A stretch of DNA of 64,000 nt from Halichondria panicea (Eukaryota; Porifera; Demospongiae; Suberitida; Halichondriidae): contig NC_087380.1 of the NCBI RefSeq assembly GCF_963675165.1, forward strand, positions 1,913,803 to 1,977,802, written 5' to 3'. Shown here piece after piece: positions 1 to 52,905 of this stretch. The notes beneath the pieces were generated by a model that saw only the letters and a program-made list of their open reading frames with translations, made no database searches and had not been told where the DNA came from. The position numbers and the translations under genes were made by a program. Every line of letters starts with the position of its first letter. Position 1 is the stretch's first letter.

Positions 1-1584
1 TGGAGTGGATCGGATCTAACGTGTGAAGGTTGGTGGAAAACGTTTACACTGTGTAGTAACAAGTGTTGTTTCTCCTATAGTTCTTATGTGTCCTCCTCTA
101 CCGGCCATTACCAATGGCATAATCTCCTACTCTCCTGATGTCCCCCCTGACTATGACCTGGGAACTGAGGCAACCTACACTTGTGAGGCTGGGTTCTATC
201 TTGAGGGTAATGAGGTACGAGTGTGTATGGATGATGATGGAATGGACGCCATTGGAGTGTGGAGTGGTCAGGAGCCAAGCTGTGTCCGTAAGTTTAGGAA
301 CTGTATTATTTCCCCAGTCGCCCCTCCTCCTGTACGTCCAGTGTTGTTCCAACTCAGACTTACCAACATCAACAACTGTCCTGACTGGGTGGTGAGTGCT
401 AAGAATGTCCTAAAGCTAAAGCAAACTAACAATTACTTATCTCTCTATACAGGACCAGGATGGGAGGTTAGAAATTGTAACGAATGCGTTTGCTGCCGAG
501 GTGGAGAGTCATTGTGGGTGTGGTTTCTCAAGCACGGTCATGACTGCCCCTCTCTTCCGCTGCTTCCCTGGGTCGGACAGAGCTGTCACATTCCAAGCCA
601 CTCTAACCGATTCCAAGCTCCTCACTCCCATACAAGCCTGGATACGGATTCATTCCCATTCAGAATATACTGATTGAGGTGGACAAGTCTTGTCAGGTGC
701 AGATATCGAGCCTTGCAGATATAGAGTGCACCACCAACCTGTAGCTGCAGCGATCATTGACCTAGCCACTGTGGTTGGTGGAGTGGTGGGAGGAGCGGTG
801 GGGTTGATCCTTCTGGTGGGCGTTGTTGTCATAGTGATTGCTGTACTGTTGTTGAAGAGTAGGAGACAGAAGATGATCGTCCACAGAACAACAAAGTGAG
901 TGAATCAATAATTTTACTGGAGCATTGAAGTGCAAACCCTCGGCGTTAATTTGTGATTTGATGTAGTCTACAGCCTCGAATCAAAGCCGCGTGAACATAC
1001 ATATATACATAGGCCACATGCAGCTTACTCACTTTTATTCGAAAACGAAACATCAAAAAATAGCTAGCCAACTTTACCTTGTTGTGTTGGGATAAAAACA
1101 GTGCTATCTCAGTTTACACAGAACGACAGACAGACTGACTGACCGACTATATACTATAAAACTCGTGGCGCCCGCGGCGCATCTCTGGTTAATTATGTAT
1201 CTCTCTACTGTTTTGAATTTGTACAAATTAACTATATCTACATTTCCCCTCCCCAGACATGACCTACCACCAGTGTCGCTAAAGGGTGTGGTCAGTACTG
1301 GTGAGATACAATCATACGAGATAATGGAAATGGGTCACGAATACGAGGAAGTGTCCAAGTTCCAACGAGCCGTTGGTGGAACACCACCCTTACATACAAG
1401 TGGCTCCGAAAGCAAGTATGTTATAAAGACTGAGCCATCACCACCCACTCTACCCACACCACCAACACCACAAACCTCACAAGCGTCTAAGGCTACTAAA
1501 AATGATACTGAGTTTACAGAGTGCATTGCTTACAGCAAGTGCACGGCCACCCACAGTTGCCCTCCACATCCCACCAGCTTATGA
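1..1584 (+). pseudogene. Unit A: 3' end of a CCP/SEA-like/TM receptor with Tyr-motif tail, frame-broken
   Basis: Only the 3' part of this unit lies in the window. Predicted exons are the end of a CCP (1-28), a full CCP (81-287), SEA-like part 1 (318-391), SEA-like part 2 plus membrane helix (453-895) and the cytoplasmic tail (1257-1584). All junctions are GT-AG and phases match the other units. The tail reads [18 protein letters not shown] and then carries YEIM, YEEV and YVIK, a Pro/Thr-rich stretch and FTECIAY. Compared with sister exons, the 453-895 exon lacks 8 bp near 639 and 4 bp near 740. Together these are a multiple of three, but the first shift meets TGA at 671-673, so the SEA-like/TM part cannot be read through. 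It is probably a recent pseudogene, or the two indels are assembly errors. As built, the ancestral protein would be a type I plasma-membrane receptor; ligand unknown. Confidence 0.75.
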
Positions 1585-4502: not shown

Positions 4503-4629
4503 ATGTACAGCTCCCCCACTCTCTCCTATGGAGAGATGGTTCTCGATACATGCTCACTGATAATTAATGGGACCTTCCTGGTTCGATCCAGCGCTGCCTT
4601 AATTGTCACACACACACACCATCGACTGT
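4503..4629 (+). pseudogene. SH2 domain, first-half exon (p85-like), best copy
   Basis: The frame reads EMVLDTCSLIINGTFLVRSS. The spacing from the E-x-V of helix A to the G-T-F-L-V-R strand matches the N-terminal SH2 of PI3-kinase p85, and the Arg is the phosphotyrosine-binding FLVR arginine (codon 4584-4586). A GTAAGT donor follows at 4630. The second half lies at 4899. Frame continuity across that intron could not be settled because an (AC)n run next to the donor varies between copies. Diverged copies of this exon occur at about 24596, 35963, 52224 and 57398, most with a stop (TGA) in place of the FLVR Arg codon. Confidence 0.6.
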
Positions 4630-4898
4630 GTAAGTATAGGGAAAAGTGGTTCATACATGTTACTGTAGCTGTAATGTCTGTCTTCATAGAGGCTAGCAAC
4701 ATGGCCATTACAAGTCAACTCTCTGTATACTTGTCAATAGCCCTAAATTGGTACAGTACAATGCTGCATGCATACTGTTTTCAAAGCAACCATTTGACGC
4801 CAATAGCTTATTGTGTACATGCATACAAAGTCTTAAATGCATTAGATTATATATTTGGGTAACTATAACTTATTTACATTGGTCATTCTCCCATGCAG

Positions 4899-5092
4899 AG
4901 ATGGAGGCAGATTCAAGAGGATCCCGTGTACAGAGACCCTGCTGGGGGGTACGGATTTGCATCACCATTATAATTTGACTCTCTGCTCAGTTTAGCTTTG
5001 TATTATGCCACCAGCACAATGGAGAAACACAACCCTGAACTGGAGGACAATGCTTAGATACCCTGCATTCCATGTGGACAGGGGTCATTGCT
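4899..5092 (+). pseudogene. SH2 domain, second-half exon, broken copy 1
   Basis: It follows a good CAG acceptor. It starts DGGRFKRIP as in the open copies, but one C is missing in the CCCCGTG stretch. This shifts the frame before the VYRDPAGGYGF segment, and further small changes (ATTATAATTT instead of ATTCGAATTT) follow. It is a decayed C-terminal half of the p85-like SH2 domain. Confidence 0.65.
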
Positions 5093-5233: not shown

Positions 5234-8200
5234 ATGCATGAAGACAGCATGAAGAAGTTACAAGGTGGCTGTGTCTCTTGGCTGGTCCTTTTGACTGGAG
5301 CTGCTCAGCTCCTACTAGTGTGTGGAGAGGGTATGTTTTACTTATGCATGACCTCTGCCAGCAATATTCACTACTGGATTCCTTCCACAATCTCTCTTCC
5401 AGTTGTATGCCCATCTCTTCCTGCCCTGAACAATGGAATAGTCTCATACAACAACTTAATACTGGGTCTGAACACTGTGGCCACCTACACCTGTGACACT
5501 GGCTATACTATCTCTGTAGACAGTCACACTACCAGGACTTGTGAGAGGGATGGAGTGTGGAGTGGGTTACCTCCATCTTGTGAGCGTAAGTGGAATGGAT
5601 TTTGTACTGTTTGTGTACGTGTTTCAATTTCCATACTGTGATAGCACCCTGTTCTGACCTTCCTCTCATCACAAATGGAGACATTGTCTACACTGATGGA
5701 TTCTCTGACTACAGACCTATCAACTCTCTTTAGCTTTCTACAGCTGCAATCCTGACTACACTCTCACTGGAGGGAGCTTGTTCAGGATATGTATGAGTGG
5801 AGGGAGCTGGGATGGGTCAACTGTAACTTGTCAAGGTGAGTTTTATATATCCCTTAATGTTACTATTATAAACGGTACTAATTTTAGTGAATTTTAGCGA
5901 ATTTGTAGTAACGCTAAATTAAGTCCGCTAAAAACGCATTTATGAATATCATAAAAATAAAAATAAAAATGTTCTGTGTTTTTAAGGGTATGCTAAGCAA
6001 GCTATAGCCCTTCTGTATCTGATCCAAACTCAACCTTATACTTACAAGACCCATAAAAACATTATAATTGCTAGGATTGGCCAGAGGAAACACCAAAAGT
6101 GTAGAAAACAAGAAAGCGGGCGAGAGCATAAGTCCAATCCGTTACAACGTCATTCATATGTATGTAAAATTTGTTGGTGGTAGTTTTTATTATACCATGC
6201 TTAACTCATTGCTGGTATATATAGGTGGTGTTCTCTTTCCTACATGTATATACATCCGGCTAGAAAAACATTTGCAATATGAAATATTGCTAGGATTGGC
6301 CAGGGGAACCACCAAAAGCATGGTAACAAGAAATCAGACGAGATTCTATTACAACGTCATTCACATGTACTTTTTTCGCTGGTAGTTTTCCATGTTTGTC
6401 CCAGCCAATCCAAGCAATTTTACTGGTGGGATGATGACCGATCCGTATATATACATCCATTTTGGAATGTGCGGGTATATAATCATGATGATTTGCGATG
6501 AATTGATATTCCTAATACATGCAGTGTTGAGCACAGGTATACACAGTCCATCCATGCGTAGTGACATGCATGGAATGATGTGGTGGATTGAAGCTGGTAG
6601 ATGGATCTGGCAGTCATATACATGTTCATGACGTTGTAACGGATTGGAGTTATGCTCTCGTCTGAGTTCTTGTTTCCACGCTTTTTGGTGGTTCCCCCAG
6701 CCAATCTTAGCAATTTTTCACATATTGCAAATGTTTTTCTAGTCGGATTTTCCCATTCAGTACAGAAGTATAAATTTACGTATCATGACATGTATAAGTG
6801 GAACGTCACAAGAAGCAGTACAGAAGCTCAAGAAGAGAAAACAGAGTAATATTGCTCTAACTGATTAAATTTGTGAGTCAGTATTAAATGACAGCCATTT
6901 TCTGTGCAGTATTTCAAGAGCATGGAGGCCTATGCAGGGGCATAGCCAGGGGGGTGCTAGGGGTGCTCAAGCACCCCCAACCAGCCTGAGTCAAGTATAC
7001 AAATCACGTGCAGAGAAATGTATCTGATTATCCAGCTGAGCACCCCTTCTCTTCCAGATCTTGCTGCAGTTAGGCTGTTAGCTAGCTAGTATAGCAAGGA
7101 AAACGATTCAGTCTCTAAACTGTGAGCTATTCTGTATAAAAAGGTGTGGCTTCCGGTCAAGCACATTTCGGCCCTCTTTCGTCTATGATATCACCCCTTT
7201 CTCCAAAATCCTGGCTATGCCCCTGCTATGCCTATGATATCTTTATTTAGCCAGTTCATATAGCATATCTGTCAGAGAAAGGGAGCTAGAGCTGAACGTG
7301 TGAAGAAAAACACCACCTCTGGAAAAGCACTGCACTCAGATTTTCAAAAGGCGCACGGTTTCTTAGCAACGCCTAACTCTGTGCAGAATGTCCTGGATGT
7401 GGCTGTATACTTGGAATTAAAAAATGCTCCCCAAGAAACTTAGATCTACTAGTCAGTCAGACAAAGAGCAATGAAACGTTGGAACAGTGCAATTTTCAAA
7501 ATGACAATATTCATTCATTAAAATGCTTTTATACACAGTCAGCTCATGATGAACATTAATTTTTGCATGCAAACTCAAAGAATGGGTAATGATAGACCAT
7601 TATTGTTGTTGTTAAAACGATTGATGCCAAAAGTTCAAGTCTAAAATTAATGGCATCAGCAGAGCCTTTTAATTGCAGCTCTCTTCTCACTCTTGCAGCT
7701 ACCAATAGCTAGCGTTCTAGTGCAGAGCTAACTACTAAGTAGAGTAGCAACACTCGGTAAAGAAGTTTGGCTACGTGCTCTTCTGAAAAGGCTGCAATGC
7801 AATGCATTCCAAGTAAGCAAAACTAGGCATAACTCGAGAACGAAGCATTGTTTTGCAAATCCACAAACTAAAATCCAAGAAAACATGACTTGAAGCCTAT
7901 AGAAACTCTTGCTTGCACTTCATTGATCCTTGAGCAGCTATAGCAGTCTACACACACACACAAACACACTACCGTATACCTCGCTTGCGCATGCGCACCG
8001 AGGCATAACTATCTGTTCAGCCAGTTTCTTGAGAAGGCCTTTCCCTGCAGAGATAGAACAGTTTAAACTTTGAACATGAGTCAAAATATGTGAATTGTTG
8101 CTAACACAGGCAAACCCACTGCCAATCCGATGTAAAACCACAGATAGAGTATAGAGAGGGATTGGAAACAGAGGTACCCTCGAAGTACCATCCGTGTATC

Positions 8201-19524: not shown

Positions 19525-20508
19525 GCACTGAAATACCCCCCTGGCCCTGTCCTGGCCCTGTATGCAAATTGACTGTAAAACTGTGACGCATAATTTTATC
19601 CTTATAGATTTGCACATTAGTTTGTGATCTTTTTAATATATGTGGTGTGGATTCTCGTTAAATCATGTACTCCAGGCTACAACAGAGTAGCAATTTAATA
19701 GTTCTTAAGATGACCTTTCCCCTAGGTAAACACTGAAGCTGTTTCATTACCCTACTAGAAGACAAAGTGTACAGAGACTAAGACCACCTCTGATCTGAGA
19801 TAGAACGACCCTTGGAGAGTGGGAGGGGCCAGACCAGAGACCACTACTATTCCACCAATAGGAGAATAAGTAGTTGCCTCATTTCTGAGTCATCCTATTA
19901 CCAAGAATTATGTGCACGTATAATTATTGCATTTTATTTTGCATGGCAATATCATTAAAATAGTTGTGGATTCTCTCGAGGTCATGCCGCGGAGGAATGT
20001 GTTACCTTATAGAGGGTTATTTTCGAGGCACTACATTTTTTATTTTGAATGACCACACCCCTACAGTAGAGAGGTATTTGTTTTGGTGCATTGACACGGA
20101 TGCATGTATGTATCAGATTATGTGATTTTTGATCACTTTCCTCTTATTTCCCTGTGCAGAGATGAAGGCAGGTTCAAGAGGATCCCCGTGTACAGAGACC
20201 CTGCTGGGAGGTACGGATTTGCATCACCATTCGAATTTGGCTCAGTTTAGTTCTGTACTATGCCACCAACACGATAGAGAAACACAACCCTGAACTGGAG
20301 ACAATGCTTAGATACCCTGCATTCCATGTGGATATAGGGACCATTAGTAACTGAACTAGCAGCTGTACAGTATTGTATGTGTATTCATTTTCTGTGTACG
20401 TGGGTGGATGTACACTCATGCAGTTTTGATGTGTGGAAATTTCAATTCAAATTCCTGTTGTCATCATTTATAATAAAGTCAACAAAACCAATGAATGCAT
20501 GTGCATGC
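19525..20508 (+). other. Interval between units B and C
   Basis: 3' flank of unit B, then sequence at 19908-20617 duplicated at 41661-42870. It includes a broken SH2 second-half exon (20160-20347). No first-half SH2 exon is seen. Confidence 0.55.
20160..20347 (+). pseudogene. SH2 second-half exon, broken copy 2
   Basis: It reads DEGRFKRIPVYRDPAGRYGF and then FASPFEF-like sequence. A deletion of about 10 bp (lost CTCTCTGCT region after GAATTTG) shifts the frame to an early TAG. The same deletion is in the copy at 42423, so it predates the duplication. Confidence 0.7.
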
Positions 20509-23500
20509 ATGCATGAAGATAACATGAAGAAGTTAGGTGATTGTGTATATCTTGGTTGGTATTTGACTGGAGCTGCTCAGCTCCTACTAGTGTGTGGACA
20601 AAGTTCACCTGCAGCTGGTATGTTTACTTTCATGACCTCTGCCAGCTCTAGCATGCATAGTGTAATAAATGTTAATTGGATGCATGCAGAAGTGTACTTA
20701 TCTCATGGATCAAACAACATCACCACTAACAACACTGAGATCCCCATCACTGATATTGGAGAGGATGCTGTGGGTGGTCTGCCCTCTCTCATCTGTCAGA
20801 CTGACCTCACCGCCTGCTGTAGAAGTCACGCTGAGAACAATGGTAATGGAGGACTGGGACAGTGGGGACGTATCCTGATGGGAGTGTGATACTGAACAAT
20901 GCTGGGTCAATGGCTGCTGGACATCAGTTCTACATTGTGAGGAATGCTCCACAACTCATCAGACTGGCTCGTAGACAGTCTAACAATCCCCTGAGTCCAA
21001 CCGGGTCCTACTGCTGTACCATACCAACTACTGGAGGAGAAATGACCCTCTGTGCCAATATTAACCTGGGTGAGTGAGCTAGTACAGCTATAGTACATGC
21101 AGTGCATGCATGATGGATACATGTGCATATGCGACAATATGTATAATATACAGTAATAATTATTTTTCTGGTGAAAAACAAAATTACCTTTTGCCATCTA
21201 ACTATTGCGTTCTGCCAAGGATTGTATATATTTACCAGTATACAAATTTAGGTTTTGCTATTTTATTGTTGCGAATTGATCACCTTTCGCGTATGGTATA
21301 ATATATAGTGATAAATGCATGCATACAGTTGTGGACTGTGGCCCGCCTCCCACTATTTTCAATGGATCTCCTGGGACACGAACCAGCACAACATTTGGAG
21401 GGACAGTGTCTTACACATGCAACGATAGATACCGTATGTCAGGATCAGCCACTGTAACTTGTGAGGCTAGTGGGAGTTGGAGCACAAAACCAACTTGCTC
21501 AGGTCTGTGAAACATAATTGTGGTGCCGTATAGTGGGAAATTTTCGCGGGTGAACGTTTTTGCCATATGACTCAAGAGCCCTCAGAATAAATTTTCGCAG
21601 TTTTCGTTTCAATGCCAAAAAATCATCAATCCCCCATATACAAACATTGCACAGAGACACTATTTTGAAAACTTCCTTTTGGGATTGTGTGAAAGTAATT
21701 TGCTATCTTGAAAGTATTGAGTTTAAACTTCCTTTTTAGACTATGTGGAAGTAAAAACTTTAGATTCACCTTTTTAAAGCCAACACCCATGCATCAATAA
21801 AAATATTCGTGTGTGGGCCTAGTTTTGTGTTAGTTTTGTGTTAGCTAATTGTGTTAGCTAATGGTAGGGTCGTTTTTAGCTGCGATGGAGTGTGGGGATC
21901 GGATCCAACGTGTGAAGGTTGGAGGCAATACGTTTACAGTCATGCACTCTGTGTTGAGCAATATTAATATTTCAAGTGTATTAATCTCTTACAGCCATTG
22001 AGTGTCCTCCTCTCTACCGGCCATTATCAATGGTACTATGATCTCCTACTCTCCTGATATCACCCCTGACTATGACCTGGGAACTAATGCAACCTACACT
22101 TGTGATGCTGGGTTCTATCTTGAGGGTAATGAGGTACGAGTGTGTATGGGTGATGATGGAATGGACACCATTGGAGTGTGGAGTGGTCAGGAGCCAAGCT
22201 GTGTCCGTAAGTTTAGCAATTGTAGTGTGTGTTTTGCTACAGAACATTTGCCACTATGTTAGTTTACTGTAATGGCATACGTATAGTACTGTGCACCTAG
22301 ATCTCTGATTGTTTATTGGCAAGACCTATATTCATGAACTGTATCATTTCCCCAGTCACCCCTCCTCCTGTACGTCCAATGTTGTTCCAACTCAGACTCA
22401 CCAACATCAACAACTGTCCTGACTGGGTGGTGAGTGCCAAGAATGTCCTAAAGCTAAAGCAAACTAACAATTACTTCTCTCTCTACAGGACCAGGATGGG
22501 AGGTTAGAAACTGTAACGAATGCGTTTGCTGCCGAGGTAGAGAGTCACTGTGGGTGTGGTTTCTCAAGCATGGTCATGACTGCTCCCCACTTCCGCTGCT
22601 TCCCTGGGTCGGACAGAACTGTCACATTCCGAGCCACTCTAACCGATTCCAAGCTCCTCACTCCCATACAAGACTGGATACAAACCAATGGATTCATTCC
22701 CATTCAGAATATACTGATTAAGGTGGACAGTCTTGTCAGGTGCAGATATCGAGCCTTGCAGATACAGAGTGCACCACCAACCAGCCTGTAGCTGCAGCGA
22801 TCATTGACCTAGCCACTGTGGTTGGTGGAGTGGTGGGAGGAGCGGTGGGGTTGATCCTTCTGGTGGGCGTTGTTGTCATAGTGATTGCTGTACTGTTGTT
22901 GAAGAGTAGGAGACAGAAGATTATCGTCCACAGAACAACAAAGTGGGTGAATCAATAATTTTACTAGAGCATTGAAGTGCAAACCCTCGGCGGTAATTTG
23001 TGATTTGATGTAGTCTACAGCCTCGAATCAAAGCCGTGTGTACATACATGTACATAGGCCGCATGCAGCTTACTCGCTTTTATGAAAACGAAACATCAAA
23101 ACATAGCTAGCCAACTTTACCTTGTAAAAACAGTGCTATCTGAGTATACACACAACGACAGACAGACTGACTGACCGACTATATACTATAAAACCCGTGG
23201 CGCCGCGGCGCACCTCGGGTTAATTTTGTATCTCTGAATTTGTACAAATTAACTATATCTACATTTCCCCTCCCCAGACATGACCTACCACCAGTGTCGC
23301 TAAAGGGTGTGGTCAGTACTGGTGAGATACAATCATATGAGATAATGGAAATGGGTCACGAATACGAGGAAGTGTCCAAGTTCCAACGAGCCGTTGGTGG
23401 AACACTACCCTTACATACAACTGGCTCCGAAAGCAAGTATGTTATAAAACTGAGCCATCACCACCCACTCCACCCACTCCACCCACACCACAACCCTCAC

Positions 23501-23608: not shown

Positions 23609-25323
23609 TACCCAACCCCCTGTATGCTACTGTTGACTATTTGCATATTGTATAATCTTGTCTAATGTATTGCTTGCATGCATTTCATTTAATTTTGCAT
23701 GGCATTGTCATCAATTTTACGCATCCTTGCTATTTGGACTCCACCCTGGATTATCATGCCATGTCGTTGAATGTGGTTGTTATTAAAACTCATAGCAGCC
23801 TGACCTCTATTCCAGGCCATATATTTCATCTAGCATTTGAAAAGCCGTTCTGGTGACAAATTAAAAAGTAAATGTGTGACCTGGTGGCAGAGGAAGATAT
23901 CAGTATATCAATTAAATCTGCTTCCAGAGGACTTGCATTTCGATCATCTACTCTTTCTTTGTTACCTCCAATCACAGGGAAGTTTACAAGGGGGGAGGTA
24001 CTTAAAGAAAGATTAGATGATAGGAATGCAATTAAAATGTCCTCTGAAAGCAGATTTTAACTTTGACCTTGTGACTATCCAACTCGCGAGTATGAATCTA
24101 GCCGATAGGATCATTGAGATGTAATAATATGAAACTGTGTCCCTCCTAGGGATCTTTGCATGGAGTGTGTATTGTAGGTATACTGAGTATTCCCTGTCAG
24201 CTCAACTTCCACCCCATTTAATACTACCACTGAATACATGTACTATTTCTTAGGGCAGGTGCCCACATTGGTTTACTATTCCAACCACTGTAGACATACA
24301 GCTGTTTACTTGTAGGGATGTGTGTGTGTGTGTGTGTGTGTGTGTGCTTGCTTTCAGTGTTTATTGTGAGCATTGCCTGTTGTGTTGTCCTAAGACAATG
24401 TTTGTCCACCTTTCGGCTGTGATAGTTTAGGAACTCTAGCAAATGGTGCATGTTGCCTTTGTTTCATTTAATAGTCAATCTGTTCACTGTGTGTGAAGTA
24501 CCTTACTAGTTAGTGATGACATAGAGTGATGTTGCAATGATTTTGTATTAACCCACCCGAGCCAGTGCAATTTTGTATTAACCCAACCCAACCCACTCTC
24601 AGGAAAGATGGTTCTCAAGACATGTCGCTCACAACGGGACCTTCCTGATTCGACCCAGCGTTGGCCTTAATTGTCACTGACACACTATATAAACTATAGC
24701 TGTAGTGTCTGTCATTGAGGCTATAGCTCATTACAAGTACATCTGTACTTGTCAATAGTCTAAATTGGTACTGTACAATGCTGTAATGTTTTTAAACCTA
24801 CCATTTGATACCAATAGCTTATTGTGTTCTTGCATTGAAATGCATCACATTGTAATTATAGACTCTATGTGGGTGACTATATTTACATCAGTCATGGTAT
24901 TCCCCATACAGAGATGGAGGCAGGTTCAAGAGGATCCCCGTGTACAGAGACCCTGCTGGAGGGTACGGATTAGCATCGCCATTCGAATTTGAAAGTACTA
25001 TGCCACCAACACGATGGAGAAAACCCTGATTCATGAACTAGAGACAATGCTTAGATACCCTGCATTCCATGTGGACAGGGGCCGTTAGTAACTGAACTAG
25101 CAGCTGTACAGTATTAATTGTATGCATGTACTCTTTCTGTGTATAATATTATGTGGTGCATATGGGACTTATTGTGGCATGCACTTTTGATATGAATTTA
25201 CTTCCTGTTGTCATCACCAATTCATTTGGAGGCATGTTTAATCAAAGATATAGGAAGGGAAGTACGTTAGTGATAACATGAGTGATTATTCTGAAGTCTT
25301 CCCTCCTATATCTCTGGTTTAAT
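23609..25323 (+). other. Interval between units C and D
   Basis: 3' flank resembling that after A and F, a (TG)n microsatellite (24317-24347), a diverged SH2 first-half exon (about 24596-24690, reading NGTFLIRPSVG but shifted relative to its upstream part), and a truncated SH2 second-half exon (24912-25088). No intact gene. Confidence 0.55.
24912..25088 (+). pseudogene. SH2 second-half exon, broken copy 3
   Basis: The start reads DGGRFKRIPVYRDPAGGYGLASPFEFE. An internal deletion then removes the LLSLVLYY segment and shifts the frame before the NPELETMLRYP-like end. Confidence 0.7.
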
Positions 25324-28300
25324 ATGCATGAAGATAGCATGAAGAAGTTACAAGGTGAATGTGTCTCTTGGCTGTTCCTTTTGACTGGAGCTGCTCAGCT
25401 CCTACTAGTGTGTGGAGAGGGTATGTTTAACTTACCTGCTAAATGACTGTGTACATATGCATACAGGAGTGTACTTATCTCTGGGATCAACCAGCATCAC
25501 CACTAACAACACTGAGATCCTCATCACTGGCATTGGAGATGATGTTGGGATTGGTCGTCCCTCTCTCATCTGTCACACTGACCTAGTGGCTTGTTGTAGA
25601 CCCAGTGAGACAATGGCAAGAGGAATTGGACTTTGGCACTATCCAAATGGGGCTCGTGTTCCTGGTGCATCAGGATCTAACTCAGCATCTCAACCATTTG
25701 TGACATTGAGAAATGTTCAATCCATTGAACTGGCTCGTAGAGAATATTTTACCCCCCCTCCCCTGAGTCCAACTGGTTCCTACTGTTGTATTATACTAAC
25801 TAATGAAAGAGTTACGGTTACCTTCTGTGCTAACCTGGGTGAGTGGTTGGGCAAATTCACACTCAATTCCATCCACAATCCCCTTCCAGTTGTGTGCCCG
25901 TCTCTCCCTGCCCTGAACAATGGAATAGTCTCATACAACGACTCAACACTGGGTCTGTATACTGTGGCCACCTACACATGTGACACTGGTTACACTCTCA
26001 TCGGAGGCACCACTAGGACTTGTGAGAGTGATGGAATGTGGTGGAGTGGATCAGCTCCGGTGTGTCAGGGTAAGTGGAATGGAATGTGGACATTCTTTAT
26101 TGAGTGTACCCTCTTCTCTACAGGTATTTGCTTTGACTTACCCCCACTGACCAATGGGATGATCTCCTACAATGATGCTGCATCCACTAACATCAGACCA
26201 GTGGGCACTGTGGCCATCTTCAGCTGTGACATTGGATACACTCTCAATGAAGACGCTACTAAGACTTGTGGGAATGATGGAATGTGGAGTGGGTCAGATC
26301 CAGTGTGTCAGCGTAAGTGGAATGGAATGTGGACATTCTTTTGTTGAGTGTACCTGCATGCTTCTCTACAGGTATCTGCTTTGACTTACCCTCACTGACC
26401 AATGGGATGATCTCCTACAATGGTGGATCCCCTAACGTGGCCACCTACACCTGTAACCTTGGCTACACTCTCAATGGAGGCAGCACCAGGGTCTGTGGGA
26501 GTGATGGGATGTGGAGTGGGTCACCTCCAGTGTGTCAGCGTAAGTGGAATGGATTTTGTAATATGTATTGATTCCCAAATAGAACTACTGATTTGTACTG
26601 ACCTCACTATCACAAATGGAGACGTTACCTATGGTGGTGATGGATCCCCTGACAACAGACCGGTGAACACTGTAGCTTTCTACAGCTGCAATCCTGGCTA
26701 CACTCTGCAAGAGTGAGAAGAGAGCTATATAGCTGCACAAGGCTGATCCAGCAGCCATTAAATTTAGACTTTGTACTTTTGACATCCTTTTTAGCAACAA
26801 TCATGGTCGATCATTTCCCACTCATTGAGTTTCCCTGCGATACTAATATAGCCTCTGCAAAAAAATAATATCATAATCATGTGTGTATATAGTACGGTGG
26901 CCCTGAGCGCTACTAGTAGTTGGTTATAATTATACTGCACTTCCCTTTTTGTAATTATAACAGGTATAGCAATCATAGTGTTAAGCTATTACGACTCATA
27001 ACCAATAGGAGATATAATACAAGAGAGATAAATGAGGATTTAAATGCTGACTCAGTTATATCTAAAAAAGTGTATTTATGTGATTTATTGATGACTATTA
27101 GACGACCTTATGCTAGCCCTGAAGATATTGTGGATAATTGAACTACACTGACCTTATGCCTTCTAATTTAAGGCATAATGAAAGCAACAATAATAATATA
27201 CCCTAAAACAAATTTGTAACCACATTTTTGTTATTACGATAATCTTAGCGTGTATTTTTTACTTGTTAGTTTCCAGCCAATACCTCAACCCGCCTGCCAA
27301 TAGTGCTATCATCTACACACCCACTTACAGTTTCCCATACATGTATCGTTACACCTGTTCCACATGCATTCCCTTCCTCACAGCAATCACCTGCTCTGCT
27401 GTCCCTACCATTGAGAATGGAACGGTTATCTATTCCAGTGACACTACTCCACCTTATGACTATGGAACAATAGCTACGTATGAGTGTGACACTGGGTATG
27501 AGATAACAAGTGGAGACAGTGAAAGGACCTGCACTGGTGATGTTGGTGATGGTCCAATGGTAGAGTGGAATGAAACTGCGGCACTTTGTTCAGGTACTAA
27601 ATGTAGTGCCTAGACGTCTATACTGCAAGCTACATGCAATTGAGATATTATACACTACACACACATACGCATGTGTAGACATTGATGAATGCTCTGGTAC
27701 TGCTCATAGCTGTGATCAGATCTGCACCAACACTCCTGGATCATACACTTGTGTCTGCAACTCTGGATACCAACTTGCTGCTGATGGAAGAGGATGTTAG
27801 TTGACTATATATCAATATTATGCTAGGGTTAGGGTTCACCAACACTGTAGTGCTAGAAATTTATGTGCAATGATATTTATGCCTGCGAGCAACTACCGTA
27901 TAGAGAATTTTTGTGGGGCAAAATATTCATGGTTTTTCGTGGTTGAAGGTCTGACCACAAATATTTTACCCATGATGGAAGTGACCTTGCCTACAGTGCA
28001 AGCTCCAACCGCGACCCACGAAATGTCTCAATATTGCTGAACCACGAATATTTTGTCCCCCGAAAATTACCCGCTATACGGTATATTGTCACATTTTTTT
28101 GTATTACTAAATAATCAGCATTTAGTTGCTGCATGTACAATCAAAATTTCGGAAAATCAAAATTGTACAAAACACAATGTTATGCTGGGGCCTATATTTC
28201 TTGCACTACAACATTAGCACTATTTCTGCGTACTATTTCTGCCTACACAGGTGATGATATTAATGAGTGTAGTACTGGACCCAACAACTGCCAGCAAGTG

Positions 28301-33705: not shown

Positions 33706-36442
33706 ACTATATAAACATGAAACTGCAAACTGATAGAAATTGTGTTGACTGCTCTAGCAATTAATTTAATGATACATTCATTTGCTTGTATTTGCATGCA
33801 TGGGCCTTTTTTTGGCTATTACAAATTTATGTTCAAAATTCTTTGGTCTGCATTTTCATTTACACGTTCTTGCATGGGTAATGTCATCACCAGTCCTTCG
33901 TGAATATGAATATGACGAGGTATCCTCACTGCATAACCATTCCCACCACAGTGTGTATATTAATTGATACATTGGTATTCATGAGAGAAGATAGCTTTGA
34001 CATTCAGTTGTGTGCTTAGAGGGAGTGGCGTGTGCTTGCTTTCAATATGATATAGAGTGCTTTAGTGTTTATTGTGAGCATTGCTTGTTGTGTTGCCCTG
34101 AGACAATGATTTTGCACCTCTTAATACCTAGGGCTGTGATCAGATAGAATTCCAGCAAATGTTGCATGTTGCTTTTGCTCCATGGAGCATCTCACGTATT
34201 TCTTGCCCGTTGCTATGTGGTTGCTAAGGTATACAATGGTTTATAACTGTGATACAGAACCTGCTATTACATAGGAATGATTGGGTGTTTTTCACGTGTT
34301 TAAATACATACTTAACATGATTGTGTGATAAGGAAAATAAACAAAGAAAATGGTTAAAATAATAAGCAGTATGTGCATACCATAAATTAATGATTAAAAA
34401 GGAAGCACGTCTTCAGCAACGAAATCAAGCAGAGAGTCTAGCTCTGCATTAACAGCTACTACTGTTTGTGGTGGTTGTATAGAAAGTTGTACATAATTCA
34501 CTGGAGCTTGGTACACATGCACATTGCAGTTTTGAAACACATTGTTCGAGATTGCTCCAGAGCTGCTTGCTCCTTGATTGCTCTCAATTTTTTGGTGCTT
34601 GTTTTTCTGTGTAGCTGTCTAGGTCTTCTTCAGTGGCAGTTTTAAATCGAGATTCAAGTTGAAGTTTTTGTTTCTTTGTCAAAGGACCTGTCAAAGGACC
34701 CTCTTCATCAGAGAACCACCCTTCAGGGGCAACATTAAGTTTAAGGTCCATTGAGTAGCCTACACCTAGTCTAGTAGAACTCATTCTCTACTCTACTTGC
34801 TCTTTGTATGGCTAATAGCTACATGTAATAATAAATTCAAAATTGCTGTCAATAGCAACATGCAAGAAAACAGTTATTGACCAATCACACGGTTTGTATG
34901 GATATACAGTGCATTCAAACCTCGGGCAAAGCCCTCGGGCATCATGCACTGTATATTCCATACAAACCTTGTGATTAGTCTATAAGTTATAGTTATAACA
35001 CGGGCACAAGGGATGTATGGAATATATTGCACTGAAGCACGAGGGCGTAAGCCCCGAGGGCTGAGTGCAATATATTCCATGCATCCCGAGTGCACGTGTA
35101 ATAACTAGTTTATATCCCGAGGGCATAGCAACATAACACTGTCTTAGTAACACAATATAAACTGCACAAAAAGATGACAAAGACAGCTCTAGACACAGCT
35201 CCATCTCTTCTCTCTCCTCCTAGACGCCAGTATATGCAGCGTATAAGTGGCATGACCGACGAATGGCTTGACACAAAATTGTTGGAGTTCCAACGCTGAA
35301 ACCACTGCAAAACAGCCCCACCCCACTTCTGGTGCTGCAAAACAGCCCCACCACGCTCGCTACTGCTGGAAAGAAACAGCCCCACCCCATTTACTGCTGC
35401 GAAGAAACAGCCCCACCCCACTATACTACTCAGTGTAACTGCTGCTCGAACAGCCCCCTCCACTATCCTCGGCATCACAACCAAGCCAAAGAAGTTCGCC
35501 TCTACACTGCTGCAAAACAGCTCAAGCCCCCTGCAAAAAGAGCCGCTTCTAGTGCTATATGGTGAAGCCAGAATTGACCGTGCATCAAAGTGGAGGACTA
35601 GGTCTAGGAACACAGAATCTTCACAAAATGAGCCTGGGACGATTTAAAAACCTGCATGCTTGTAAAGAAGAAACTCCAGCAGTGCTGAACATTCCTGCAT
35701 GGCTGGACTTACTTTGATACTTGTTATTTCTCATGATAAAATATTTAATTTAATTATGCCAGAGGGGCGTTTTGTGGTCAGTGCAATATGACTTTTCAGC
35801 AGTGCAATATGACTTTTCAGCAGTGCAATATGCTTCATATTGCACTTGGCAACAACATAGCAACGGGATATAACTATAACATATAGACTACCTGTATACT
35901 ATATTGTGCAATCATGTATACTACTTTGTTTTGAAGTCATAATTATAACCACCCACCCCACCTCAGGAGATGGTTCTCGAGACATGCTCACTGGCATGGT
36001 AAACCTTTCCTGGTTTGACCCAAGGATAATGTGGAGGAGTCCTCAACTATGCCTTGTTACACACACACCATCGACATTGTAAGTTAAAGGGAAGAGCAGT
36101 GCATTGCTGTAGTGACTGTGTCTATAGAGAGAGGCCATTAGTTATACATGAAAAATTGATCTGCAAGTATGTAGACTATATTTTGTACTGGTCAATAGAG
36201 CTTAAATTGGTATTGTACAGTTCTATGCTTTATACTGCTTTGAAAATTGATGCCAATAGCTTGTTGTATGATATGATACAGAGTCTAAATGATTTTCTTT
36301 CTGTGTCTATGTGCTCAAGAGTACTCTTATAATACATGCATGTGGGTGCATGTACATTTTATACTTCCTGTTGTCATTAATTAAAGTGAATAATATGTAG
36401 ATCTACATGTAGATTCTACACTATAGAATTACCAATGACTGC
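33706..36442. other. Interval between units D and E
   Basis: 3' flank, then a likely 1.7-kb mobile element (34206-35873), then a decayed SH2 first-half exon (about 35963-36079, with TGA replacing the FLVR Arg). The SH2 second half is absent in this interval. Confidence 0.55.
34206..35873 (-). mobile_element. TIR element with KIAA1958/Crypton-like coding remnant and nested palindromes
   Basis: CCCGTTGCTATGTGGTTGC (34206) returns inverted near 35853-35873. On the minus strand, 34784 down to about 34587 reads MSSTRLGVGYSMDLKLNVAP and later RFKTATEEDLDSYTEKQAPK. This resembles the N-terminal part of KIAA1958/ZMYM-type proteins derived from Crypton recombinases. After a frame change, a second open stretch runs to about 34396 (NNVFQNCNVHVYQ, ending DVLPF stop). 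The recombinase core is missing. Palindromes occupy 34876-34990 and 34992-35110, a GC-rich minisatellite (AAACAGCCCCACCCC) spans about 35290-35460, and a repeated GTGCAATATGACTTTTCAGC motif lies at 35782-35845. The family call is tentative. Confidence 0.4.
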
Positions 36443-39400
36443 ATGCAAGAAGACAGCATGAAAAAGCTACAAGGTGACTGTGTCTCTTGGCTGGTCCTTT
36501 TAACTGGAGCTGCTCAGCTCCTACTAGTGTGTGGAGAGGGTATGTTTAACTTACCTGCTAAATGACTGTGTACATATATGCATACAGGAGTGTACTTGTC
36601 TCTGGGATCAACCAGCATCACCACTAACAACACTGAGATCCTCATCACTGGCATTGGAGATGATGTTGGGATTGGTCGTCCCTCTCTCATCTGACCTTGT
36701 GGCCTGTTGTACACCCAGTGAGACAATTATGGCAAAAGGTATTGGAAATTGGCGCTATCCAAATGGGACTCATGTTCCTGGTGGATCAGGATCCAACTCA
36801 GCATCTCGACCGTTTGTGTCATTGAGAAATGTTCAATCCATTAAACTGGTTCGTAGAGAGAGTGTTAACCCCCCTCCCCTGAGTCCAACTGGTTCCTACT
36901 GCTGTACTATACCAACTACTGGAGGAGAGATGATCTTCTGTGCCAACCTGGGTGAGTGGTTCTTTAATCTTGGATTCCATCCACAATCTGATTCTGTTTC
37001 CAGTTGTGTGCCCGTCTCTCCCACCTCTGACCAATGGAATAGTCTCATACAGCCACTTAACACTGGGTCTGAATACTGTGGCCATCTACACCTGCGACAC
37101 TGGCTACACTCTCAATGGAGGCACCACCAGGACTTGTGGGAGTGATGGAGTGTGGAGTGGGTCAAATCCAGTGTGTCAGCGTAAGTGGAATGGAATGTAG
37201 ACATTTTTATTGAGTGTACCCGCATGCTTCTCTACAGGTATCTGCTCTGACTTACCCTTACTGACCAATGGGATGATCTCCTACCTTGGTGGATCCACTA
37301 ACAACAGACCAGTGGGAACTGTGGCCGTCTTCAGCTGTAACACTGGCTACACTCTCAATGAAGACGCTACTAAGACTTGTGGGAATGATAGAATATGGAG
37401 TGGGTTAGATCCAGTGTGTCAGTGTAAGTGGAATGGAATATGGACATTATTTTTTTAAGTGTACCCTCTTCTCTACAGGTATCTGCTTTGACTTACCCTT
37501 ACTGACCAATGGGATGATCTTCTACCTTGGTGGATCCACTAACAACAGACCAGTGGGCACTGTGGCCATCTTCAGCTGTAACACTGGCTACACTCTCAAT
37601 GAAGACGCTACTAAGACTTGTGGGAATGATGGAATGTGGAGTGGGTCATCTCCAACATGTGAAGGTCATAATTATTAGCTGAGTGGTAGTACATGTACCG
37701 TGACTCCTGAGCTTATTCCTACAGCCATTATGTGTCTTCCTCTACCGATCATTACCAATGGCATGATCTCCTACTCTCCTGATGTCACCCCTGACCATGA
37801 CCTGGGAACTGAGGCAACCTACACTTGTGAGGCTGGATTCTATGTTGAGGGTAATGAGGTACGAGTGTGTATGGATGATGATGGAATAGACACCATTGGA
37901 GTGTGGAGTGGTCAAGAGCCAAGCTGTGTCCGTAAGTTATCAGTGAAAGTGTGTAGGTACTATACAAACACGAACATGCATGTGTTTGGTCATATACAAT
38001 TAATTATCACAGCCCTTATTTGTCCTCGTCTCCTTGTTCCTACCCACACTTCAATATCTTACCTTCCTCGTACCAGTTCCCTTTTCTCCTATGGAACACA
38101 AGCAACTCCAATAATAATTGTATTGTCGGCAGGTATCACATGTTCTGCTCTCATTAATGTTATTAATGGGTCCATTAGTTACTCTAGTGGTACTACTGCA
38201 CCATATGACTATGGAACAACAGCTACTTATCAATGCAACCTTGGGCACATGTTAACAACTGGAGACAGTGAGAGGACCTGTACTGGTGATAGTAGTACTC
38301 CTAGTGGTCAGTGGGATGGTGCTGCTCCTCAATGTCCACGTACGTTCTATTATTGCATTATCGTATCACATGATAATGTACACGCAACATAGCTGTGGAC
38401 TGTGGGACTCCTCGGCCTACTACCAATGGATCTCCTGGGATACCAACAACCACAACATTCACAGGGACCGTGACCTACAGCTGTAATGATGACTATACAC
38501 TCTTTGGGATTGCTACAAGTACTTGTCAGGCAAATGCAACCTGGAGCAGACCACCAGAATGCAGAGGTGTGTGCTTTAATACATTAATTACTGTTTGCAT
38601 TCAAAAGTTTAGTCCTGTTGTGCTATGTTGTTTGTTAGAGCATATATGCCCAGTGGGAACCTATCACGAAGAGTTGTCAACTGGAGAGAGTGTGTGTGTG
38701 TCTTGCCCTAGAAACACCTTCAGCATTGTTGAAAATAGTGTGGAGTGTACCTGTTTTCGCGGCTACTACAGGACAAAACTAGAAGGACCAAACTTTCCAT
38801 GTTCATGTAAGAATTGCACTCTGCAAGGCATGCATGTATGTGTGCAAGCGGGTGTTGTTCAGTATTTGAATTGTACAATACATATTGACAATTAAAATGT
38901 TCATATAGCCCCTCCGGTTAGCTGTAAGAGTTTCCAAGTAGTTACTGAGAGAACTCGAGGTAACACAATCACTGTGCGTTGGGAGAGGCCCAAGATCACT
39001 GGGAGAGACGACTTCTATTACAACATATTCTACTCTGAGGACAACCAGACCTTCACTCAACACAACAGCAGGCCGTACGTCAAACAAGACTCCCTGGTGG
39101 ACTACTCAGTGTCTGGTCTGCGGCCACTCACCACCTACACCATCCGAGTGATCCCTGAGAATGGAGTGAGTGATCAGGAGGACGAAGGGCAGAACAGGAG
39201 CTGTGATGTGGTAACCATGACTGGGGATACAAGTGAGTGGACTCGCATTTTTGAAACCATTCTGTTTAGATAATTATTGCATGTGTAGTTAGTTGTACAA
39301 TTGAAAATTATTGTGATTGATTAATATTTCTACCTTGCCCTCAAGGGTCTAATGCCCCCTCCCTGGTGATCGGTTTCTGCACCGTTGTGGTTTGGATCGA

Positions 39401-41560: not shown

Positions 41561-42422
41561 TGCTAAAAGTATTCCGAGCATAATTAATTTTATCGGGATC
41601 CCACAGCCCACAAGCTTATGAAATACCCAACCTCCTGTAATCATTATGCAACTGTCGACTATGTGCACGTACAATTATTGCATTTTATTTTGCATGGCAA
41701 TATCATTAAAATAGTTGTGGATTCTCGAGGTCATGCCGCGGAGGACTGTGTTACCTTATAGAGGGTTATTTTCGAGGCACTACATTTTTTATTTTGAATG
41801 ACCACACCCCTACAGTAGAGAGGTCTTTCAATACGAGGATTTAAATACTGAAAGTAAACCATGATTTCAAAATTTTAGAGGCACTAAATACAAGGTTTGA
41901 GGTCAATCCGCGAAAATCAGTAGATCCATCTTTCAATAAAAAGCCGCAACTTATACTGATAGCCTCGATTCCAGGCCATGTCATTTATACACGTCCCAAG
42001 ATTAGAGGTACGTAGTTGTCATCCTGATTCACCACTGGCCACTCTCAGGGGCCTCTGGATGCAGCCAGACAAAAATGAATGTGTAGAAACTAGACCACCC
42101 CCTCTGAGAAACGAAACTATGTCCCCTTACCGGAATTTTAATATAGCCAGTGTGCATTGTGTTTCAATGATTAATTATAGCATACTTCAATCTTACACTA
42201 CATTAACCTATTCTCCCCCCAGCGTGCCCTCCCGCCTTGTCTGAGAAAATTACAAGTACATAATTATCTGTAACTTGACAATGAGCCTAAATTAGTACTG
42301 TACATTCATGCTGTTTTGAAACCCACTTGTTGTCAATAATTTGTTTTGGTGCATTGACACGGATGCATGTATGTATCAGATTATGTGATTTTTGATCACT
42401 TTCCTCTTATTTCTCCGTGCAG

Positions 42423-42608
42423 AGATGGAGGCAGGTTCAAGAGGATCCCCGTGTACAGAGACCCTGCTGGGAGGTACGGATTTGCATCACCATTCGAATT
42501 TGGCTCAGTTTAGTTCTGTACTATGCCACCAACACGATGGAGAAACACAACCCTTAACTGGAGACAATGCTTAGATACCCTGCATTCCATGTGGATAGGG
42601 ACCGTTAG
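42423..42608 (+). pseudogene. SH2 second-half exon, broken copy 4
   Basis: It reads DGGRFKRIPVYRDPAGRYGF and then FASPFEFGSV stop, through the same deletion as at 20160. It belongs to the duplicated segment. Confidence 0.7.
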
Positions 42609-43030
42609 TAACTGAACTAGCAGCTGTACAGTATTGTATGTGTATTCATTTTCTGTGTACGTGGGTGCATGTACACTCATGCAGTTTTGATGTGTGGAAA
42701 TTTCAATTCAAAGTCCTGTTGTCATCATAATAAAGTCAACAAAACCAATGAATGCATGTGCATGCATGCATGAAGATAACATGAAGAAGTTAAATGATTG
42801 TGTATCTTGGTTGATATTTGACTGGAGCTGCTCAGCTCCTACTAGTGTGTGGACAAAGTTCACCTGCAGCTGGTATGTTTACTTTCATGACCTCTGCCAG
42901 CTCTAGCACATACCGTATAGCGGGTATATTTCGAGGGTATAAATTTTCGCGGATGGACCATTACAAAGGATTTCGCAGATTTTATTTTCGTGGTCTGAGT
43001 TCCCTTTGGCCAGAGATACAAAAGAAAGGG

Positions 43031-48910: not shown

Positions 48911-51324
48911 AAAGATAACAGACCAGTGAACACTGTGGCCACCTACACCTGTGACACTGGCTACACTCTCAATGGAGTCAGTACCAGGACTTGTGGGAGT
49001 GATGGAGTGTGGAGTGGATCAGATCCAACGTGTGAAGGTTGGTAGCAATACATTTACAGTCATGCACTCTGTGTTGAGCAATATTAATATTTCGAGTATT
49101 ATAACAAGTTGTTTTCACTTGGGTGTATACAGCCATTGAGTGTCCTCCTCTACCGACCATTACCAACGGTATGATCTCCTACTTTCCTGATGTCACCCCT
49201 GACTATGACCTGGGAACTAATGCAACCATCACTTGTGAGGCTGGGTTCTATCTTGAGGGTAATGAGGCACGAGTGTGTATGGATGATAATGGAATGGACA
49301 CAATTGGAGTGTGGAGTGGTCAGAAGCCAAGCTGTGTCCGTAAGTTTAGCAATTGTAGTGTGTGTTTTGTGTTTTGCTACAGAACATTTGCCACTATGTT
49401 AGTTTACTGTAATGCATACGTATAGTACTGTCACCTAGATCTCTGATTGTTTATTGGCAAGACCTATTCATGAACTGTATCATTTCCCCAGTCGCCCCTC
49501 CTCCTGTACGTCCAGTGTTGTTCCAACTCAGACTCACCAATATCAACAACTGTCCTGACTGGGTGGTGAGTGCTAAGAATGTCCTAAAGCTAAAGCAAAC
49601 TAATGATTTACTTCTCTCTCTACAGGACCAGGATGGGAAGTTAGAAACTGTAACGAATGCGTTTGCTGCCGAGGTAGAGAGTCACTGTGGGTGTGGTTTC
49701 TCAAGCATGGTCATGACTGCTCCCCGCTTCCGCTGCTTCCCTGGGTCGGACAGAACTCTCACATTCCGAGCCACTCTAACCGATTCCAAGCTCCTCACTC
49801 CCATACAAGACTGGATACAAACCAATGGATTCATTCCCATTCAGAATATACTGATTGAGGTGGACAAGTCTTGTCAGGTGCAGATATCTACAGCCTCGAA
49901 TCAAAGCCGTGTGTACATACTGTTACATGTACATAGGCCACATGCAGCTTACTCGCTTTTATTCGAAAACGAAACATAAAAAAATAGCTAGCCAACTTTA
50001 CCTTGTTGTGTTGGGATAAAAACAGTGCTATCTGAGTATACACAGAACGACAGACAGACTGACTGACCGACTATATACTATAAAACCCGTGGCTGGCGCC
50101 GCGGCACACCTCTGGTTAATTATGTATCTCTCTACTGTTCTGAATTTGTACAAACTACATTTCCCCTCCCCAGACATGACCTACCACCAGTGTCGCTAAA
50201 GGGTGTGGTCAGTACTGGTGAGATACAATCATACGAGATAATGGAAATGGGTCACGAATACGAGGAAGTGTCCAAGTTCCAACGAGCCGTTGGTGGAACA
50301 CTACCCTTATATACAACTGGCTCCGAAAGCAAGTATGTTATAAAAACTGAGTCACCACCACCCACTCCACCAACACCACCCACACCACAACCCTTACAAG
50401 CGTTTAAGGCTACCGGAAATGATACTGAGTTTACAGAGTGCGTTGCTTACAGCAGTGCACGACCACCCACAGTCGCCCCCCACATCCCACCAGCTTATGA
50501 ACTAATACCTATAACCCCCTGTATGCTACTGTTGACTATTTGCATATTGTATAATCTTGTCTAATGTTTTTGCTTGCATGCATTTCATTTCATTTTGCAT
50601 GGCATTGTCGTCAATTTTACGCATCCTTGCTATTTGGACTCCACCCAACAACTGTGGATTATCATGCCATGCCGTTGAAGTGGTTGTTATTAGCCGCTAA
50701 AAACTCATAGCCTCAATCTACTTCAAGTCATATTTTATCTAGTATTTGAAAAGCCTTTCTGGTGATAAAAAGTAAATGTGTGGCGTGGTGTCAGAGGAAG
50801 ATAGTCATTGTCAATTAAAATTTGCTTCCGGAGAACTTCAAAATTGCATTTCGATCGTCTACTCTTTCTTTGTTACCTCCAACCACAGTAAAGTTTACTA
50901 GGGGGAGGTACTAAAAAAAGATTAGATGATAGGAATGCAATTAAAATGTCCTCCGGTATCCTCCTAGGCCTGGCGTGGTGGGTGGTGGTCATCTAGCCAG
51001 CTGATTTGAGAGAGGACGACCCTCGGAGAGTGGGAGGGGAAAAACCAGATACCACTATATATATGTACCGCTACTACCCACTGGTATAGGTAAAACTCAC
51101 AGCAAAAGTGACGGCTCGCGAGTACGAGTACAAATCTAACAGGTAGGATCATTGAGAATGTATAATAATATGAAACTGTGTCCCTCCTAGGGATCTTTGG
51201 AGTGTGCATTGTAATATGAGTTTTATACCACATGACTATTAGAAAACACAATAATTATTATATAGCACATACTAGATCTACAAGCTTACACTGCCCTTTC
51301 GGATGAACCCGGCCAAAGTTTGTA

Positions 51325-51900: not shown

Positions 51901-52571
51901 TTAACACATTGGCCTTACTACCAATACATGTACTATTCTTAGGGCAGGTGCCCACATTGGTTTACCATTCCAACCACTGTAGACATACAGCTGTTTACTT
52001 AGTGTGCATGTGTGTGCTTGCTTTCAATCTGATAGGCTCAGTGTTAGTGAGTTGTTGTGTTGTCCTGAGGCAAGCACCTTTCAATAGCCTAGGGCTGTGA
52101 TAGTTTAGGAACTCTAGCAAATGGTGCATGTTGCCTTTGATTGTCAATCTGTGTGAAATACCTTAGTACTGAGTGATGTTATCATTGTACAATCATGATG
52201 CAAATCATAAGTATTAACCCACCCCCCACCTCAGGAAAGATAGTTCTCGAGACATGCTCACAACGGGACCTTCCTGGTTTGACCCAGCGTTGCCTATTGC
52301 CACACACACACCATTGACTGTGTAAGTATATAGGTTCATGCATGTAGCTGTATATAGTGTCTGCATGTCTTCATACACGTAGAGGCTAGCAACGTGCAAG
52401 TGCAGATAGCCCTAAATTGGTACTGTACAATGCTGACTGTATACTGTTTTCAACCCTGCCATTTGACGTCAATAGCTTATTGTGTACATGCATACAAAGT
52501 CTTGCATTATGAAGATTATTATAATTATTTGGGTGACTATAATTATTTACATTGGTCATTCCCCCATGCAG

Positions 52572-52767
52572 AGATGGAGGCAGGTTCAAGAGGATCCCCG
52601 TGTACAGAGACCCTGCTGGGGGGTACGGATTTGCATCACCATTCGAATTTGACTCTCTGCTCAGTTTAGTTCTGTACTATTCCACCAACACGATGGAGAA
52701 ACACAACCCTGAACTGGAGACAATGCTTAGATACCCTGCATTCCATGTGGACAGGGGCCGGAACTAG
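52572..52767 (+). pseudogene. SH2 second-half exon, open copy 5
   Basis: Open from a CAG acceptor to a stop: DGGRFKRIPVYRDPAGGYGF, FASPFEFDSLLSLVLYYSTN, TMEKHNPELETMLRYPAFHV, DRGRN. The YGF, F-S-L-x-x-L-x-x-Y-Y and NPxLxxxLxYP pattern is that of the p85 N-terminal SH2 rather than Src-type SH2 domains. The matching first-half exon (52224-52324) has TAG and TGA stops, so the pair cannot encode a domain unless joined to another exon. Confidence 0.65.
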
Positions 52768-52905
52768 CAGCTGTACAGTATTGTATGTGTATTATATATA
52801 CACTTTTGATGTGTGGAAATTCATTGCAATGATAATTTCAGACTTCCTGTTGTCACTGATCACTATTAAATTGGAGTACATGTAGGCATGCATGCATGAA
52901 GAAGC

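Follow-up and report, generated by a model that had tools for sequence, protein, structure and literature searches.

Last exons of a PIK3R-like gene recur between tandemly arrayed receptor genes in the sponge Halichondria panicea

The DNA analyzed here, referred to as the window, is a 64-kb stretch (64,000 nucleotides) of the 131-Mb genome of the sponge Halichondria panicea (contig NC_087380.1, hereafter C4, positions 1,913,803-1,977,802); window positions are counted from 1. It contains a series of receptor genes, and between the tail exon of one gene and the signal-peptide exon of the next lie copies of the exons for the first half (e1) and the second half (e2) of a C-terminal SH2 domain (cSH2). 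A first-pass annotation had counted seven second-half and about five first-half copies between the receptor genes, and comparison with the exons of the parent gene described below bore this out, as the window holds exactly seven copies of e2, five of e1, and eight signal-peptide exons, remnants included (Table 1). The end of an e2 copy is found ~135-365 nt upstream of seven of the eight signal-peptide exons, while the eighth (36446) is preceded by e1 only. In a genome search, the best e2 piece at each place of the array gave E values of 2.7e-39 to 1.0e-7, which argues against chance similarity, and a search of the SH2 pieces against PDB returned a match to p85-alpha (E = 7.7e-15).

Table 1. 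Receptor, SH2 and linker exon features in the window.
Feature	Position in window	Strand
Receptor tail exon preceding the SH2 site (YEIM, YEEV)	1258..1584	+
e1 copy, broken: TG in place of the AG acceptor, in-frame TAA	4531..4629 (match to parent 4531-4586)	+
e2 copy, broken frame, terminal stop codon lost	4899..5089	+
Signal-peptide exon of the next receptor	5237..5330	+
PIK3R linker exon fragment (exon after the inter-SH2 exons), 89%	19781..19844	+
e2 copy, broken frame	20160..20347	+
Signal-peptide exon	20512..20629	+
e1 copy, partial, broken	24603..24655	+
e2 copy, broken frame	24912..25088	+
Signal-peptide exon	25327..25416	+
e1 copy, unit without e2	35967..36080	+
Signal-peptide exon, unit without e2	36446..36535	+
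PIK3R linker exon, 18-nt match	42092..42109	+
e2 copy, broken frame	42423..42608	+
Signal-peptide exon, found at the DNA level, missed by protein search	42769..42884	+
PIK3R linker exon fragment, 90%	51007..51058	+
e1 copy, partial, broken	52235..52284	+
e2 copy, open frame, DNA 98% identical to parent exon	52572..52760	+
Signal-peptide exon	52895..52983	+
e1 copy interrupted by stops, TGA at the FLVR arginine	57400..57499	+
e2 copy, open frame, 2 residues shorter	57560..57746	+
Signal-peptide exon remnant, missed by protein search	57896..57966	+
e2 copy, broken frame	58925..59119	+
Signal-peptide exon	59482..59557	+

The receptor genes themselves show several further features. Frames that by eye resemble a LINE-type reverse transcriptase lie within the first receptor unit (window 10825-12444), and two near-identical translated frames ~955 bases apart (28363-28900 and 29318-29855) point to a doubling of receptor exons. 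The unit devoid of e2 encodes ephrin-receptor-like and fibronectin III domains plus a sushi repeat (38377-39273). Ectodomains may differ between units.

An intact copy of the SH2 exons outside the window, which the first-pass annotation had proposed to look for, was found in a PIK3R-like gene at C4:1,870,001-1,880,000 (locus L007). This gene, hereafter the parent, lies on the same strand (+) as the array and ends ~35 kb to the left of the window. In the part that we traced, an nSH2 exon (44.9 bits in Pfam) is accompanied by inter-SH2 exons, one of which (21.3 bits) stays under the cut-off (31.5), by linker exons, and by a cSH2 encoded by e1 (L007 8473-8592) and e2 (L007 8858-9050), followed by a stop codon. 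In-frame joining of the last three exons gives a cSH2 that is recognized by Pfam as SH2 (28.9 bits, cut-off 21) and whose best PDB match is p85-alpha. The parent therefore resembles PIK3R1/p85, the regulatory subunit of class IA PI3-kinase, in having an nSH2, an inter-SH2 region and a cSH2 with the stop right after it. A second PIK3R gene (L008), at C4:1.81 Mb, runs in the opposite direction; the intron of its cSH2 (17.9 bits, under the cut-off of 21) has the same place and phase as the intron between e1 and e2 of the parent. In both genes the nSH2 core, from FLVR to YGF, resides on a single exon. The receptor signal-peptide frame of the leftmost unit has its first ATG ~150 nt past the PIK3R stop codon.

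The parent also contains repeated DNA. A linker intron (L007 5967-7320) carries transposon-like repeats with 80-97% identity at many places of the genome, as seen among the best 40 of 2,163 candidates. At another array locus, L013, the linker pieces flanking the position of these repeats are ~150 nt apart and free of them, and the repeats thus probably entered the parent later. A further match, to L007 1525-1648, looks like a dispersed repeat.

The SH2 pieces are the last two exons (cSH2) of this neighboring PIK3R-like gene. The first-pass annotation had assigned them to the N-terminal SH2 of p85; the p85-type PI3-kinase assignment held, and the N-terminal one gave way to a C-terminal one on the grounds of the neighboring exon, its position and its intron. 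One open array copy of e2 shares 61 of 63 residues (97%) with the parent cSH2 exon, compared to 20 of 41 with the parent nSH2, and the DNA of e2 in the 34 units of the array is 90-98% identical to the parent exon over aligned bases. The cSH2 of the parent stands after the inter-SH2 exons and before the stop, and its intron place is common to the cSH2 of both PIK3R genes. Furthermore, a genome-wide DNA search with the nSH2 exon revealed no copies beyond that of the parent. An nSH2 origin was rejected on three grounds: the neighboring gene, the place of the intron, and the lack of further nSH2 exon copies.

The comparison with the genome's PIK3R genes, also proposed at first pass, was less clear-cut. 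In a tree of 12 rows that included 6 open copies of the 34, the array and the parent fell on the cSH2 side, but the split (92/96) was under the tool's mark of 95/80 and the branches were long. When the neighboring cSH2 is left aside, plain similarity leans slightly toward nSH2 (scores of the array exon: p85-alpha nSH2 101 vs cSH2 95; L007 nSH2 104 vs L008 cSH2 83). The cSH2 assignment consequently rests on the neighbor's exon and on the intron position. A Pfam scan of three e1/e2 pieces alone gave no match.

Querying the genome with e2 returned 51 matching pieces that were merged by hand into 34 array places, the parent exon and two other SH2 matches, namely the parent nSH2 at 1,873,092 and a match on the opposite strand at 3,671,798; these counts are lower bounds. 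The at least 34 e2 places follow the parent over ~420 kb, all on the + strand within C4:1,884,648-2,295,618. Accompanying pieces, hereafter passengers (signal peptides, e1 and other exons), continue to 2.60 Mb, with inverted outliers at 2.59-2.60 Mb. Of 39 signal-peptide matches, 28 in the array and that of the parent have an e2 within 700 nt upstream (counted by hand), 2 have an e2 1.4-1.6 kb upstream, and 8 lack a full e2, 3 of which retain a 41-42 nt piece.

The passengers extend beyond the two SH2 exons. Using L007 3630-5218 as a DNA query, we found the last inter-SH2 exon at at least 12 further places on C4 (2.00-2.60 Mb) among the best 40 of 89 candidates. Every one of these 12 matches begins at L007 5053-5083, that is, within ~30 nt of the left end of the exon, and the earlier inter-SH2 exons were in none of the 12 places among the same best 40 of 89; the remaining matches were short (query 806-905) and located elsewhere in the genome. 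The linker exon that follows was found at 18 further places on C4 in a genome-wide DNA search, and all copies of the inter-SH2 and linker exons are on C4, within the array or among the outliers up to 2.60 Mb. Additional passenger pieces in the window and in the fetched loci match L007 7406-7513 and 7724-8018. Because the passengers reach the last inter-SH2 exon and include nothing earlier and no nSH2, we infer a left breakpoint inside PIK3R, between L007 ~4824 and 5083.

The repeated unit consists of the 3' end of a PIK3R-like gene plus a CCP-type receptor gene, and these observations suggest the following course of events. Initially, a receptor gene would have lain directly downstream of the PIK3R gene, and a tandem duplication that broke PIK3R immediately to the left of its last inter-SH2 exon would have multiplied the receptor along with the last PIK3R exons. 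The SH2 coding function of these passengers is lost in nearly all units. Such a duplication predicts that nSH2 and the earlier inter-SH2 exons occur only in the leftmost copy, as is seen. That the SH2 pieces are a PIK3R 3' end copied along with the adjacent receptor is, in our view, very probable. An origin as retro-fragments, which the first-pass annotation had named as an alternative, is not supported, given the retained e1-intron-e2 order and the tandem arrangement, since a retropseudogene would lack introns and be dispersed.

The SH2 domains of p85 prefer pYxxM, and the first-pass annotation had linked the SH2 exons to receptor tails bearing YEIM or YEMM. Among the six tails lying wholly in the window, four do carry YEIM or YEMM and two carry YEMI; the second half of one of the six (at 23279) is frame-shifted. 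A seventh tail, cut by the window end, has YEMI. We read 33 tails in total, 25 from the array and 8 from related receptors (C4:122-234 kb and 848 kb). The first motif of the array tails is YxxM in 15, YEMI in 7 and YEMV in 1, and its tyrosine is missing in 2, while none of the 8 related tails has YxxM as first motif. In contrast, YEEV, which we take to resemble the preference of Src-family SH2 domains, occurs in 33 of 33 tails. The proposed link between YxxM and p85 is thus weak; judging from these motifs, it is not a fixed property of the receptor family, given that YxxM varies as described and YEEV does not.

Two other features of the tails were observed. In 20 of the 25 array tails, YEII or YDII follows YEEV by ~10 residues, a spacing reminiscent of an ITAM; the window tails are located near 1258, 19189, 23279, 33376, 50175 and 56025. 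The related receptors (C4:122185-234274 and 847671, loci L058-L065) form a second receptor set with tails that are 57-63% identical and have YEMI or YEII as first motif.

The coding ability of the copies is poor. At a threshold of 90% of the exon length, e2 has an open frame in 10 of 34 units (8 of 34 by a stricter frame test) and e1 in 2 of 34, and no unit of the 34 carries adjacent e1 and e2 as an open SH2 with the FLVR arginine. In the sole unit with both exons open, e2 is interrupted by an insertion of 116 nt and FLVR is replaced by FLVQ. In the 16 units with an alignable e1 context (18 could not be aligned in e1), the FLVR codon is TGA in 7, CAA in 2, CGA in 6 and AGA in 1. The first frame test took in 520 nt upstream of e2 and the second one ~1.5 kb, and within this longer stretch an additional e1 copy turned up in a few units. 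One of them, L017 (C4:2027730-2029410; e2 at 2,029,228), has an open e2, two residues short, and a distant e1 copy 1.5 kb upstream that keeps FLVR and a GTAAGT donor; this e1 would join the open e2 in frame, bypassing a nearer e1 with TGA. The next best unit, L013, has an open e2 and FLVR in its nearer e1, but this e1 is frame-shifted.

The first-pass annotation had put forward two further ideas, that the ancestral unit carried a receptor with its own adaptor, or a receptor with an alternative SH2-bearing C-terminus. Neither is supported: of the neighboring PIK3R gene the units carry the 3' end alone, in none of the 34 units is the adjacent e1-e2 pair readable as an SH2, and the one unit that could yield an open SH2 would do so via a distant e1. 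A version in which SH2 proteins or SH2-tailed receptors that bind the pYxxM of the tails are encoded by the units, or were until recently, could appeal to the proximity of a p85-type SH2 to the 15 YxxM-bearing array tails, to the 8 to 10 open e2 frames, to L017, and to a slight excess of synonymous changes in e2 (synonymous/nonsynonymous/stop, 40/74/3 seen vs 32/80/4 expected). Against it speak the lack of any adjacent open e1-e2 pair with the FLVR arginine, the loss of this arginine to TGA or CAA in 9 of 16 alignable units, the even spread of substitutions over codon positions (37/38/42 distinct minor alleles) and the equal likeness of broken and open e2 copies (identity of 0.934 vs 0.939), so that we consider this version very improbable. 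Coding constraint on e2 is not supported by the codon positions, and the synonymous excess is small.

e2 with the next ~45 nt is nevertheless better conserved than its intron or the signal-peptide exon. Aligned all together, the units spread out over 2,717 columns, and pairwise alignments to the parent were used instead, in which the intron identities are forced and rough. Mean pairwise identity among the 34 copies was 0.89-0.97 in e2 and the start of its 3' flank, compared to a rough 0.54-0.72 in the intron, 0.74-0.76 in e1 and 0.73-0.83 in the signal-peptide exon. The same was seen with the 26 frame-broken copies, with 0.934 in e2, 0.975 in the next 45 nt, 0.628 in the (roughly aligned) intron and 0.807 in the signal-peptide exon. 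Together with the even spread of changes over codon positions and the equal likeness of broken and open copies, these results indicate that the cause of the e2 likeness is non-coding.

The likeness could be only apparent, with e2 seeming conserved for the reason that intron and flanks align badly, and nothing maintaining it. Flanks with many insertions, the forced intron alignment and the four closest pairs of units, in which e2 and the upstream flank differ equally (~1.5% each), are consistent with such a neutral relic. However, in the 47 of 536 pairs with well-aligned flanks, which are not independent of one another, substitutions per site amounted to 0.054 in e2 and 0.119 upstream, and gap events per kb to 15.7 and 79, respectively, making a neutral relic improbable.

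The explanation that we find most likely, and hold tentatively, is a promoter role. e2 and ~45 nt of its 3' flank, situated ~105-345 nt before the receptor ATG, would belong to the receptor promoter region. In the compact genome of another sponge, Amphimedon queenslandica, intergenic regions are small and start and termination sites overlap, according to the available text of PMC4773876, which makes a promoter inside the 3' end of an upstream gene plausible. Several observations run counter to a promoter role: the signal-peptide matches without a full e2 (8 of 39) include one unit (1,910,857) with a normal tail downstream, at 1,915,060, the four closest pairs show no difference between e2 and upstream flank, and e1, too, has a somewhat higher identity than the intron. 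No RNA structure was detected in the parent e2 plus 45 nt (z = 0.53).

Alternatively, e2 may have no function of its own and be kept alike by gene conversion, either between units or with the PIK3R parent as donor, which we consider possible but somewhat less likely than not. It would account for the equal divergence of e2 and upstream flank in the four closest pairs next to a divergence near 6% in e2 and near 30% upstream (forced alignments) overall. Distances in e2 and in the flank are unrelated (Mantel rho 0.016, p 0.45; e2 vs upstream 0.19, p 0.11), as conversion would have it, a weak point given that the flanks are also mutually unrelated (0.13, p 0.18). Conversely, a home-made PHI-type test gave no signal of mosaic recombination within e2 plus 45 nt (50 informative sites, p 0.47), even if whole-exon tracts would escape it, and the conserved block begins sharply at the exon edge. 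Furthermore, at one site the parent base is absent from 32 of 33 copies, suggesting that the parent is no frequent donor; at another site 6 of 28 share the parent base. Constraint on e2 and gene conversion are both compatible with the data.

Carried one step further, the promoter proposal would have ~30 receptors driven by the former cSH2 exon of PIK3R, a dead exon turned into a shared promoter element of the array, which is conceivable but rather doubtful. A repeated dead exon is not among the features described in the available text on Amphimedon promoters (PMC4773876).

The closest known case would be STK19B in the human RCCX locus, where module duplication broke inside a neighboring gene. 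According to the available part of PMC8362596, a full STK19 lies upstream of C4A, and only its 3' end (914 bases), STK19B, lies directly upstream of the duplicated immune gene C4B as a result of the duplication. The present array has the same make-up, in that pieces from the 3' end of the flanking gene precede the duplicates and the upstream exons occur once, at the edge and on the same strand, except for the inverted outliers (2.59-2.60 Mb). RCCX differs in that it commonly has one to three segments, whereas at least 34 e2-bearing units are found here, and in that its module also leaves a truncated TNXA (PMC8362596, same part). More generally, breaks inside genes leave truncated copies, also in tandem arrays such as AFPIII, as the accessible portion of PMC3449122 describes; there the truncated copy becomes the gene, while here it is the passenger of another gene. 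Compared to PIK3R1/p85, the array passengers lack whatever precedes the last inter-SH2 exon, and a readable cSH2 is missing from almost all of them. In the available parts of the literature on sponge PIK3R/SH2 arrays, sushi-domain receptor clusters and CCP receptors with ITAM tails, we found nothing on the present locus.

What looked like a suggestive pairing of receptor and adaptor is thereby turned into a structural marker, as the PIK3R remnants mark the gene next to which the array was born and the break of its duplication. The well-preserved yet mostly untranslatable e2 offers a testable case of a neighbor's coding DNA retained as regulatory DNA of a gene family. If the promoter reading is true, the receptors of the array may share regulation with a PI3-kinase adaptor whose SH2 class recognizes YxxM.
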